A stretch of 35,287 nt of DNA. Source: Gemmatimonadaceae bacterium. Lineage in GTDB: Bacteria > Gemmatimonadota > Gemmatimonadetes > Gemmatimonadales > Gemmatimonadaceae. The stretch covers positions 1 through 35,287 of the forward strand of contig JAIBBJ010000015.1 of NCBI GenBank assembly GCA_019694735.1, in the 5' to 3' direction. Under the pieces are notes generated by a model. The model did not search any database. It was not told the origin of the DNA and was given only the letters and a program-made list of their open reading frames with translations. Positions 9,702-22,655 of this stretch are shown in pieces. The position numbers were made by a program, and so were the translations under genes. Every line of letters starts with the position of its first letter. The first letter of the stretch is position 1.

Positions 9702-9717
9702 TTTTTCACGTGAAACG
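9702..9717. promoter_or_regulatory. Degenerate parS site
   Basis: TTTTTCACGTGAAACG differs at two positions from the 16-bp ParB site TGTTTCACGTGAAACA and retains the central TTTCACGTGAAAC core. It lies 38 bp upstream of the perfect copy. Confidence 0.75.
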
Positions 9718-9739: not shown

Positions 9740-9755
9740 TGTTTCACGTGAAACA
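9740..9755. promoter_or_regulatory. parS: parS centromere site (perfect)
   Basis: TGTTTCACGTGAAACA exactly matches the widely conserved bacterial parS palindrome where ParB loads. It directly abuts the putative parA -35, so ParB binding could also affect parA transcription. Confidence 0.97.
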
Positions 9756-9761
9756 ATCGGT

Positions 9762-9791
9762 TTGTCGGGGGAGGGGGTGGGCCGGTATATT
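9762..9791 (+). promoter_or_regulatory. parA promoter
   Basis: TTGTCG (9762-9767), an 18-base spacer and TATATT (9786-9791). The -10 context GTATATTCGCC closely resembles that of rnpB (CTATATTCCCC). Transcription would start near 9798, leaving a leader of about 27 nt. Confidence 0.5.
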
Positions 9792-9824
9792 CGCCGGTCC
9801 ACCCCTCTCTCGCACCGGAAGACT

Positions 9825-10631
9825 GTGGCCCGCATCATCGCCATCGCGAACCAGAAAGGCGGCGTCGGCAAGACGACCACCGCCGTGAACCTCGCTGCAT
9901 CGCTCGCAGCGGCGGAGCAGCGCACCCTGCTCGTGGACGGCGACCCTCAGGGGAACGCCTCGAGCGGCATCGGTCTCGCGCGCGACCAAGCGGGGGAGAC
10001 CATCTACGACGTACTGCTCGACGCGTCCCGAATCGACACCGCCATCATCCACGAGGTGCAGTTCAAGCACCTGGATGTCCTTCCGGCCACTCCCGATCTC
10101 GCTGGCGCCGAGATCGAGCTCGTCGGAGAAGAGGAACGCGAGCTGGCCATGCGCCGCGCCCTCGAGCGCGTGCGCGCTGCCTACGACTTCATCCTGATCG
10201 ACTGCCCTCCGTCGCTGGGCCTGATCACCCTGAACATGCTCGCGGCCGCGGACGCACTGCTCATCCCGCTGCAATGCGAGTACTACGCCCTCGAGGGGCT
10301 CTCCCAGCTGCTCAACACGGTCCACCTCGTCCAGCAGGGGGTGAACCCGAGCCTGGGAATAGACGGCGTCGTGCTCACGATGTACGACGCGCGCCTCAAC
10401 CTCTCGCGCCAGGTGGCCAACGACGCGCGAGAGTATTTCGGCGCGAAGGTGTTCCAGTCGGTGGTACCACGGAACATCCGTTTAGCCGAGGCGCCTTCCT
10501 TCGGGAAGCCCATCATCCTGTATGACGTGGCCTCCGTCGGTGCTCAGGCGTATATGGGAGTAGCCCGTGAATTGATCGAGCTCAATCGCAATCGGTCGGC
10601 GTCATCAGGGGGTCCAGCCAGGGATCCCTAG
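9825..10631 (+). CDS. parA: Chromosome-partitioning ATPase ParA (Soj)
   Basis: 268 residues. The deviant Walker A KGGVGKTTT at residues 11-19 carries the signature lysine; Walker B regions LLVDGDPQGN and FILIDCPPSLG follow; PLQCEYYALEGL is typical of chromosomal ParA/Soj. Nucleoid-bound ParA-ATP dimers are displaced by ParB-parS to move origins apart. The GTG at 9825 is chosen because the family begins at IIAIANQKGG and GGAAG lies just upstream. The longer frame from 9762 runs through the promoter. parB follows after 58 bases. Confidence 0.96.
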   Translation: MARIIAIANQKGGVGKTTTAVNLAASLAAAEQRTLLVDGDPQGNASSGIGLARDQAGETIYDVLLDASRIDTAIIHEVQFKHLDVLPATPDLAGAEIELVGEEERELAMRRALERVRAAYDFILIDCPPSLGLITLNMLAAADALLIPLQCEYYALEGLSQLLNTVHLVQQGVNPSLGIDGVVLTMYDARLNLSRQVANDAREYFGAKVFQSVVPRNIRLAEAPSFGKPIILYDVASVGAQAYMGVARELIELNRNRSASSGGPARDP

Positions 10632-10654: not shown

Positions 10655-10673
10655 TATTGCAATATCTTACACT
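10655..10673 (+). promoter_or_regulatory. Palindrome and -10-like element before parB
   Basis: TATTGCAATA (10655-10664) is a perfect 10-bp palindrome followed by TACACT (10668-10673), which fits TAnnnT and lies 16 bases before the parB ATG. No good -35 is visible. It could be a separate parB promoter with an operator. Confidence 0.35.
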
Positions 10674-10689
10674 GCACTCACGGCGACAG

Positions 10690-11649
10690 ATGAGCACTGA
10701 CAAGAACAGGCGCCTCGGGCGCGGCCTAGAGGCGCTGCTCGCCCGGACACCGTCGCGGCAGGAGTCCGCGGCCCCGGCATCGCCTGAGACGTCCACCGCG
10801 TCCGTGCCTCGTGCGGGTGGCGAGTCCTCGTCGCCCCTTCGGTCGCTGCCCATCGCGCAGATCCGACCGAATCCGCTGCAGCCCCGCAAGGAGTTCAAGC
10901 CGGAGGAGCTCGCGGACCTCGAAGCGTCGTTGCGCGTCAGTGGTCTCCTGCAGCCCGTGACGGTCCGGCCGGCCCCGCGCGGCAGCGGCTACGAACTCAT
11001 CGCCGGCGAACGCCGGTTCCGTGCGGCTCAGCGTCTGGGGTGGACCGAGATCCCGGCGATCGTGAAGGACGTGGATGATCGCCTGCTGTTGTCGCTCGCG
11101 ATGGTCGAGAATCTGCAGCGGTCCGACCTCAATCCGATCGAAGAGGCCGAGGGCTATGAGCAGCTGATCAAGGACTTCTCGCTCACGCAACAGGAGGTCG
11201 CGGACATCGTCGGCAAGGATCGCTCGACGATCGCGAACACACTGCGTCTCCTCGCGCTCCCGGCGAGCGTCCGGCGTCTGGTCTGGGACGGCCAGCTCAC
11301 GGTCGGCCACGCCCGCGCCCTCCTGGGGGTCGGTGACGAGATCCGCATCGCGGACCTCGCCCGAGAGGTCGTCGCGCAGGGACTCTCGGTGCGCGAAGTG
11401 GAGCGCCGGGTCCGTGAGGCGGCACCGGCGCCCAAGCGAAGCACGGCGCCGACCGCACCGCAGGCGACGAGCGATGTCCGCAGCGCCGAGGTCCGGTCCC
11501 TTGAGGACCAGTTGCGGAAGCATCTCGGGACCGACGTGCGGATCGTGCAGAGCGGGAAGGAGAAGGGTGAGCTCCGGGTGCCGTTCTACAGCGCGGACGA
11601 CTTCGAGCGGCTGCTCGACCTCCTGCTCGGCGCCAATCGCCTCGCATGA
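10690..11649 (+). CDS. parB: Chromosome-partitioning protein ParB (Spo0J)
   Basis: 319 residues. The N-terminal KNRRLGRGLEALL is the ParA-interacting box. PNPLQPRKEF and GERRFRAA (106-113) form the CTP-binding ParB/Srx core. The helix-turn-helix at about 165-187 (LTQQEVADIVGKDRSTIANTL) recognises parS. The C-terminal LRKHLGTDVRI to FERLLDLLL is the dimerisation domain. The family loads at parS and spreads as a CTP-gated clamp. The ATG at 10690 is preferred, since the TTG at 10657 falls in the palindrome/-10 region. The stop overlaps the next start as ATGA. Confidence 0.96.
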   Translation: MSTDKNRRLGRGLEALLARTPSRQESAAPASPETSTASVPRAGGESSSPLRSLPIAQIRPNPLQPRKEFKPEELADLEASLRVSGLLQPVTVRPAPRGSGYELIAGERRFRAAQRLGWTEIPAIVKDVDDRLLLSLAMVENLQRSDLNPIEEAEGYEQLIKDFSLTQQEVADIVGKDRSTIANTLRLLALPASVRRLVWDGQLTVGHARALLGVGDEIRIADLAREVVAQGLSVREVERRVREAAPAPKRSTAPTAPQATSDVRSAEVRSLEDQLRKHLGTDVRIVQSGKEKGELRVPFYSADDFERLLDLLLGANRLA

Positions 11650-12173
11650 ACCGCAACCTGACGCCGAGGCCGGTCCGTGCCGCAGGAGCGAAGGATGCCC
11701 ACGGGAGCATCCTCGACCCGAGCGCCGGAGCGCTCTACGTGCATATGCACCGCGAGAGTGGGCTCGCCCATCGGCACTACGTGCTGAAGGGGTGGCAGGT
11801 GCGGACGCTCCGCCTGCTGGTCTCGCGGCCGATGCAACTGGTCTACGTGATCGCGATCGTGACGATGGGCTGGGCCTGGTCGCAGGCCGCGCGCGTGCCG
11901 ATCCTGCTGCTCCGCGTCGGCGAGCTCACCCGCGATGCCAAGCGACTCGATACGCTGACGGAACGCCTCACCCAACTCACCGCGCGGTATGAGCAGGTCC
12001 AACGCATGATGGCGGCGGCACGTGTGCCGACGGCATCTGCGAAGGACTCGGCGCGGGTCGCCCCGGTGGCGTCCCGGCCGGCACCCGTTCGTGACACGAC
12101 CCGCGACACCACCCGTGCGCGCGCGGCGGCAGCGACCAAGGACACCTCCCGTCCGGTCCCGCCGAATCCCTGA
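11646..12173 (+). CDS. One-TM coiled-coil protein between parB and bactofilin
   Basis: 175 residues, not assignable to a named family. A cytoplasmic N-terminus of about 60 residues precedes one membrane helix at about 62-83 (LVYVIAIVTMGWAW). A coiled-coil stretch follows at about 88-122 (LTRDAKRLDTLTERLTQLTARYEQVQRMM), then a low-complexity Ala/Thr/Pro tail with RDTTRDTTR. This plan resembles the N-terminal half of the membrane-anchored M23 peptidases often encoded next to bactofilins, but no peptidase domain is present. Translation is coupled to parB by ATGA. Bactofilin follows 20 bases later, so a role at the envelope with bactofilin or ParB is inferred. Confidence 0.75.
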   Translation: MNRNLTPRPVRAAGAKDAHGSILDPSAGALYVHMHRESGLAHRHYVLKGWQVRTLRLLVSRPMQLVYVIAIVTMGWAWSQAARVPILLLRVGELTRDAKRLDTLTERLTQLTARYEQVQRMMAAARVPTASAKDSARVAPVASRPAPVRDTTRDTTRARAAAATKDTSRPVPPNP

Positions 12174-12193
12174 TCCAGAACTCAGGAGAGCCT

Positions 12194-12625
12194 TTGGCCA
12201 TCTTCAGCAAGGACGACAACGCGCGCGCCGCCAAGGGAAGCGAGGCGACGCTCTCGATCATCTCCAGCGGTACGACCGTGAGTGGCGACGTCACGACCGG
12301 TGGCGTTCTGAAGGTCGAAGGTCAGGTCGATGGCAGCGTACGCGAAGCACGGCAGGTGATGCTCGCGAAGGAGGGCGCCATCCGGGGCGACGTCCACGCG
12401 AGCGAAGTCGTGGTGGGCGGGGTGATCGACGGGAACGTCACCGCACACGAGCGACTTGAACTGCAGTCGACCGCGGTGGTCAACGGCGACATCACCACGA
12501 AGTCCATCGTCGTGATGGAAGGCGCGCGCATCAACGGCGCAGTGCGGATGACGGAGCTGGCCCTGGTCGGCCGGGGTGATGAGAGTCGCGACACGAAGGA
12601 TGCTCGCGCCGCGCGGAAGGGATGA
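12194..12625 (+). CDS. Bactofilin (polymer-forming cytoskeletal protein)
   Basis: 143 residues with the bactofilin beta-helix core at about 18-125: repeated turns such as SGTTVSGDVTTGG, LKVEGQVDGSV, EGAIRGDVHA and VVNGDITTKSIVVMEGARINGAV, flanked by short disordered ends. Bactofilins self-assemble without nucleotide and act in cell shape, stalk or pilus placement and, in Myxococcus, in ParABS positioning. The TTG start has a strong AGGAGAG 3 bases upstream. The location directly behind parAB supports a link to segregation or envelope work. Confidence 0.93.
   Translation: MAIFSKDDNARAAKGSEATLSIISSGTTVSGDVTTGGVLKVEGQVDGSVREARQVMLAKEGAIRGDVHASEVVVGGVIDGNVTAHERLELQSTAVVNGDITTKSIVVMEGARINGAVRMTELALVGRGDESRDTKDARAARKG

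Positions 12626-19667: not shown

Positions 19668-22655
<2,988 letters not shown>

Follow-up and report, generated by a model that had tools for sequence, protein, structure and literature searches.

A putative LmdC-type bactofilin partner without its M23 peptidase, encoded between parB and bactofilin in Gemmatimonadaceae

Introduction

Bactofilins are thought to shape cells largely by placing an M23 endopeptidase.

LmdC is the M23 DD-endopeptidase partner of the bactofilin BacA in Hyphomonas neptunium and Rhodospirillum rubrum. Its cytoplasmic region attaches to bactofilin (KD about 15 uM for peptide 1-38), and mutations in its hairpin abolish or disturb recruitment (PMC10945521). Non-enzymatic partners also occur in a bactofilin-linked M23 system, that of Helicobacter pylori, where Csd2 is homologous to the hydrolase Csd1 but inactive, and the transmembrane (TM) protein Csd7 stabilises Csd1 (PMC9507126).

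The coupling of bactofilins to chromosome segregation is known as well. In Myxococcus xanthus, the BacNOP-PadC-ParA system couples bactofilin to ParABS, and PadC binds ParA and contains a ParB-like (ParBC) domain (PMC5703909). In Bdellovibrio bacteriovorus, parA3, parB and bactofilin are co-transcribed (PMC7186360); the bactofilin gene bd3904 carries the next locus number after parB (bd3905), with no mention of an anchor gene in between.

Here, we analysed a window of 35,287 nucleotides (positions 1 to 35,287 of contig JAIBBJ010000015.1 of a Gemmatimonadaceae bacterium), in which a gene for a one-TM coiled-coil protein, called the anchor below, stands between parB and bactofilin. The original prediction regarded a membrane anchor joining bactofilin to ParB-parS as undescribed, a word that overstates the case for the link between par genes and bactofilin itself, known from the two species above; the point of interest here is the repeated loss of the enzyme. 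No paper on Gemmatimonadota bactofilins was found in the literature searched.

Results

Layout of the par-bactofilin locus

The features of the locus are listed in Table 1. The TGA stop of parB at 11649 overlaps the ATG start of the anchor gene at 11646 (ATGA), as had been predicted, and bactofilin follows after a gap of 20 nt. The interval first reported, 11646-12625, covers not one gene but two, those of the anchor and of bactofilin. The bactofilin scores 88.7 bits against PF04519 (gathering cut-off 27.9), and its place right behind the anchor, also predicted, is confirmed. Two parS sites, one of them perfect, are located 5' of parA, with 0.01 chance matches expected in the scan at up to 3 mismatches, and ParB should therefore nucleate beside the par operon.

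Table 1 Features of the par-bactofilin locus in window coordinates
Feature	Position	Strand	Evidence
parS-like site, 2 mismatches	9702..9717	+	consensus scan
Perfect parS consensus TGTTTCACGTGAAACA, 5' of parA	9740..9755	+	0 mismatches
parA	9762..10631	+	AAA_31 E=5e-66; start codon uncertain, ORF as listed begins TTG
parB	10657..11649	+	ParB_N, HTH_ParB and ParB_C matches
Putative peptidase-less LmdC-type membrane anchor, 175 aa	11646..12173	+	homology and AF2
Codons 17-52, beta-hairpin segment, cytoplasmic and conserved, proposed to bind bactofilin	11694..11801	+	conservation, AF2, lowest dN/dS
Codons 53-82, predicted transmembrane helix region	11802..11891	+	sequence; long helix in AF2 model
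Codons 83-123, predicted periplasmic coiled coil RVPxL...RLDTLxxxLxxLxxRYxQVQxM	11892..12014	+	conservation, AF2, dN/dS
Codons 124-175, unconserved Pro/Ala-rich tail, position of M23 in relatives	12015..12170	+	mean identity 36% in genus, dN/dS 0.65
Bactofilin, TTG start	12194..12625	+	PF04519 E=3e-25, single bactofilin of the genome

On the 5' side the window carries, besides parA, a SIMPL-domain gene, a 656-codon ORF without Pfam match and mnmG, and on the 3' side of bactofilin a Bmp/PnrA-type gene and nif3. A tRNA-SeC gene (anticodon tca) was detected by ARAGORN at 20338-20410 on the minus strand.

Architecture of the anchor and selection on it

The anchor consists of a cytoplasmic N-terminus, one TM helix, a short coiled coil and a Pro/Ala-rich tail, the N-in orientation being expected from the positive charges. 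In AF2 models, which are single chains, the window anchor has hairpin strands at 29-33/44-47, a helix at 49-59 and a long helix at 61-126 that holds both the TM segment and the coiled coil; confidence is high solely in the long helix and modest in the hairpin (pLDDT about 60-75). In the model of an M23-bearing orthologue, hairpin and helix are similar, and the C-terminal domain matches the M23 structures of ShyA, LytM, EnvC and Csd1-Csd2.

Seven residues, among them G20, G28, R36, G39 and L40, are invariant in 38 family members. Gemmatimonadaceae homologues also share a conserved cytoplasmic stretch before the hairpin, H/YGNI..P..G (codons 19-28; 11700-11729), which the M23 orthologues of the other families did not show. 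Median dN/dS within the genus is lowest in residues 17-52 (0.15), followed by the coiled coil (0.28), the TM region (0.37) and the tail (0.65); these values are rough because dS is near saturation. By this rough measure, the hairpin segment and the coiled coil are under purifying selection, and the tail much less so.

No Pfam or NCBIfam family matches the window anchor above cut-off, which leaves it without a recognisable M23 domain, and a ParB-like (ParBC) domain was likewise without match in either database. Two sub-threshold candidates were rejected: DUF3138 (E=0.18), and the filament morphology protein FcmC (NF052682), which covers only residues 95-143 at 12.8 bits (E=0.11) against a curated cut-off of 90 bits.

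Conservation of the gene order

We found 47 strong anchor homologues in 46 of 148 Gemmatimonadaceae genomes. All 47 have parB directly 5', and bactofilin lies 3' in every locus whose contig reaches far enough (45 of 45). A phylum-wide profile search of 395 genomes gave relatives in 256. In the 39 loci fetched from six other families, parA and parB always precede the protein in this slot (hereafter X) and bactofilin comes next in 37, the usual order being mnmG-parA-parB-X-bactofilin-nif3. The start codon of the anchor gene lies in a 4-nt overlap in 36 of 81 anchor loci of the par slot. An order kept in seven families, often with overlapping start and stop codons, suggests selected co-expression. 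Homologues scattered away from parB and bactofilin were looked for in the family and in the six others, and the linkage reported originally was not refuted.

The anchor-bactofilin pair is not obligate. Three genera (g6, g26 and g29; L195-L202, L069) have bactofilin behind parB without an anchor, an order that can be compared with the single transcript of B. bacteriovorus. Conversely, both loci without a following bactofilin (L150 and L151) belong to one genus of another family, g81, whose two genomes (G389 and G181) contain no bactofilin above cut-off anywhere, yet have an intact anchor-M23 protein behind parB.

Weak matches in six family genomes (G030, G039, G061, G076, G090 and G120:C20; E about 1e-4) were taken as chance, and three fetched weak-match loci (L050-L052) had neither a profile match nor a par or bactofilin neighbour. 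A single-sequence scan of genome contigs for the anchor gave no match, but an alignment-based scan did; 37 of its 38 records bear Gemmatimonadaceae- or Gemmatimonadota-type names, and the remaining record is a 'Verrucomicrobia' MAG that may be misbinned.

Repeated loss of the peptidase

Outside the family, X usually has a hairpin-type cytoplasmic segment (for example MSFIIVPHG...TRSFEVTYRQLR), a TM helix, a coiled coil and an intact M23 domain. The motifs HPGxD, YGH and HLHFE are all present in 35 of 39 such proteins, and the other four (L136-L139) end once the coiled coil is complete, with the bactofilin gene following at a short distance.

Inside the family the state is more varied. M23 is intact in two loci (L035 and L041), degenerate in ten and absent in 33, including the whole genus of the window; the remaining two of the 47 run off contig ends. 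In the degenerate forms the first histidine and the histidine of YGH are gone, in some the aspartate too, but H-L/I-HFE remains. Comparing the family's M23-less anchors with the M23-bearing proteins of other families, hhalign gives a probability of 99.4% (E=1e-21) over residues 25-130, a comparison that covers the anchor regions alone. Thus, same-slot orthologues with an intact, degenerate or absent M23 domain bear out the earlier idea that the protein corresponds to the anchor half of bactofilin-linked M23 peptidases, minus the peptidase.

The peptidase state changes at least 5 times on a tree of ParB, and within one clade of several genera 28 of 29 rows keep the peptidase-less form. L139, from another family and outside this tree, is likely a further loss. 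At least five losses or inactivations of the peptidase, with hairpin, TM helix and coiled coil conserved, argue for a non-enzymatic role.

Loci without the anchor

In 12 other family genera, fetched because they had no good anchor match, the operon retains parAB but includes no anchor and no bactofilin. The same holds for G116 (2.1 Mb), from the genus of the window, in which a Bmp gene stands directly behind parB (L155). The same-genus genomes without the anchor (G116, G134, G139 and G143) also have no bactofilin above cut-off, and this joint absence in four genomes fits bactofilin as the partner. However, in G134, G139 and G143 (1.9-2.3 Mb) no ParB match was found at E 1e-40, either because the whole par locus was lost or because of assembly gaps, so that only G116 separates bactofilin from ParB as the partner of the anchor. 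A sign test for the co-occurrence of anchor and bactofilin gave p of about 0.25 and was under-powered, with only 3-4 supported pairs.

Bactofilin and other M23 proteins of the genome

The bactofilin in the window is the only one of the genome. Its N-terminus, MAIFSKDD, resembles a membrane-targeting sequence (compare MFSKQAKS of BacA; PMC12448750). Since bactofilins of genera without the anchor also begin with a MAIFSK-like N-terminus of their own, the anchor is probably not merely for holding bactofilin at the membrane, and a role solely of this kind was rejected.

Four M23 proteins are encoded elsewhere in the genome. One of them (L053, on C127) has an LmdC-like N-terminus, RRWTLLVVPPKNGTTRELSV, and has no adjoining bactofilin because the only one sits in the window; it is possible that L053 is a peptidase acting in trans.

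Discussion

The window anchor and LmdC both have a short cytoplasmic beta-hairpin region, one TM segment, a periplasmic coiled coil and a bactofilin-adjacent gene, a likeness to the alphaproteobacterial protein that is one of architecture and not of direct sequence alignment. (Two plasmid M23 matches examined while seeking an alphaproteobacterial LmdC had no bactofilin neighbour.) The window anchor differs in having no M23 domain and in standing behind parB. Lacking an M23 C-terminal domain with zinc ligands, it is classed as an M23-less derivative, expected to act in the manner of the non-enzymatic portion, and not as an LmdC peptidase. It resembles Csd2 and Csd7 as a non-enzymatic partner; Csd2 differs in keeping the M23 fold, and Csd7 is a TM protein.

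Judging from sequence, the anchor is an LmdC-type bactofilin partner minus its M23 endopeptidase, whose hairpin would bind bactofilin, whose TM helix would cross the membrane and whose periplasmic part would relay the position of the polymer; we give this reading a probability of roughly 0.75. The family's proteins are orthologous to the M23-bearing ones, share their anchor architecture and have lost the peptidase. By analogy with the LmdC experiments, the cytoplasmic beta-hairpin should bind the bactofilin encoded by the next gene. The single TM helix would span the inner membrane, and the coiled coil and flexible tail would pass the position of the polymer to the envelope. We infer this periplasmic role, which is most likely to recruit or position other wall enzymes or to restrain the polymer. 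Placement behind parAB and beside parS would let the module be expressed together with these segregation genes, close to the origin, and no contact with ParB is claimed.

Such a contact was part of the original prediction, in which the anchor joins the polymers of bactofilin to ParB-parS; such a tether would keep the replication origin at the membrane. An old and strict parB-anchor-bactofilin order, the ATGA overlap, the perfect parS next to the operon and the conserved extra segment at residues 19-28 speak for a tether, as does M. xanthus, where bactofilins organise ParABS through PadC (PMC5703909). Both systems link bactofilin to the segregation machinery; however, the window anchor has a membrane helix, and neither ParBC nor any other ParB-binding feature was found in it, parAB persists without it in 12 fetched genera and in G116, where bactofilin is also gone, three genera have bactofilin behind parB in its absence, its orthologues carry a periplasmic peptidase, which is a wall function, and it is bactofilin that the hairpin region of LmdC binds. 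We consider the tether unlikely, and a physical tie to ParB-parS is possible but unsupported beyond the operon structure. A narrower form, in which the peptidase-less Gemmatimonadaceae anchor is an adapter that binds ParB or ParA through residues 17-28 and bactofilin through the hairpin, thereby keeping the origin at a site of the membrane marked by bactofilin, is very unlikely. As for location alone, the bactofilin-anchor pair could be a self-contained module for wall or shape whose position in the origin-proximal mnmG-parAB cluster is accidental, which is compatible with an LmdC-type partner. The module can be missing with parAB intact, and mnmG and nif3 are likewise conserved neighbours without obvious link, but the order conserved across seven families and the frequent 4-nt overlap point to selected co-expression; we hold this hitchhiking quite possible, at somewhat below even odds.

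What the protein does after losing its peptidase allows two further readings. Repeated loss of the enzyme, and complete absence of the anchor in some genera, could mean a non-functional remnant on its way out, which we find scarcely credible in view of the seven residues invariant across 38 family members, the purifying selection on hairpin and coiled coil, and the clade in which nearly all rows keep the peptidase-less form. The other refines the LmdC-type partner explanation: the periplasmic part may bind and activate or stabilise a separate wall hydrolase in trans, like EnvC or Csd2/Csd7, the candidates being the four other M23 proteins of the genome. The LmdC-like N-terminus of one of these, the forms with a degenerate M23 seen in other family genera and the H. 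pylori precedent favour such regulation, which we propose tentatively, as less than an even chance.

In summary, a shared operon and at least five peptidase losses with the bactofilin-facing part conserved suggest a second, non-catalytic job for the partner. The Gemmatimonadota loci offer natural separation-of-function variants, and the link between bactofilin and segregation becomes testable beyond Myxococcus and Bdellovibrio.
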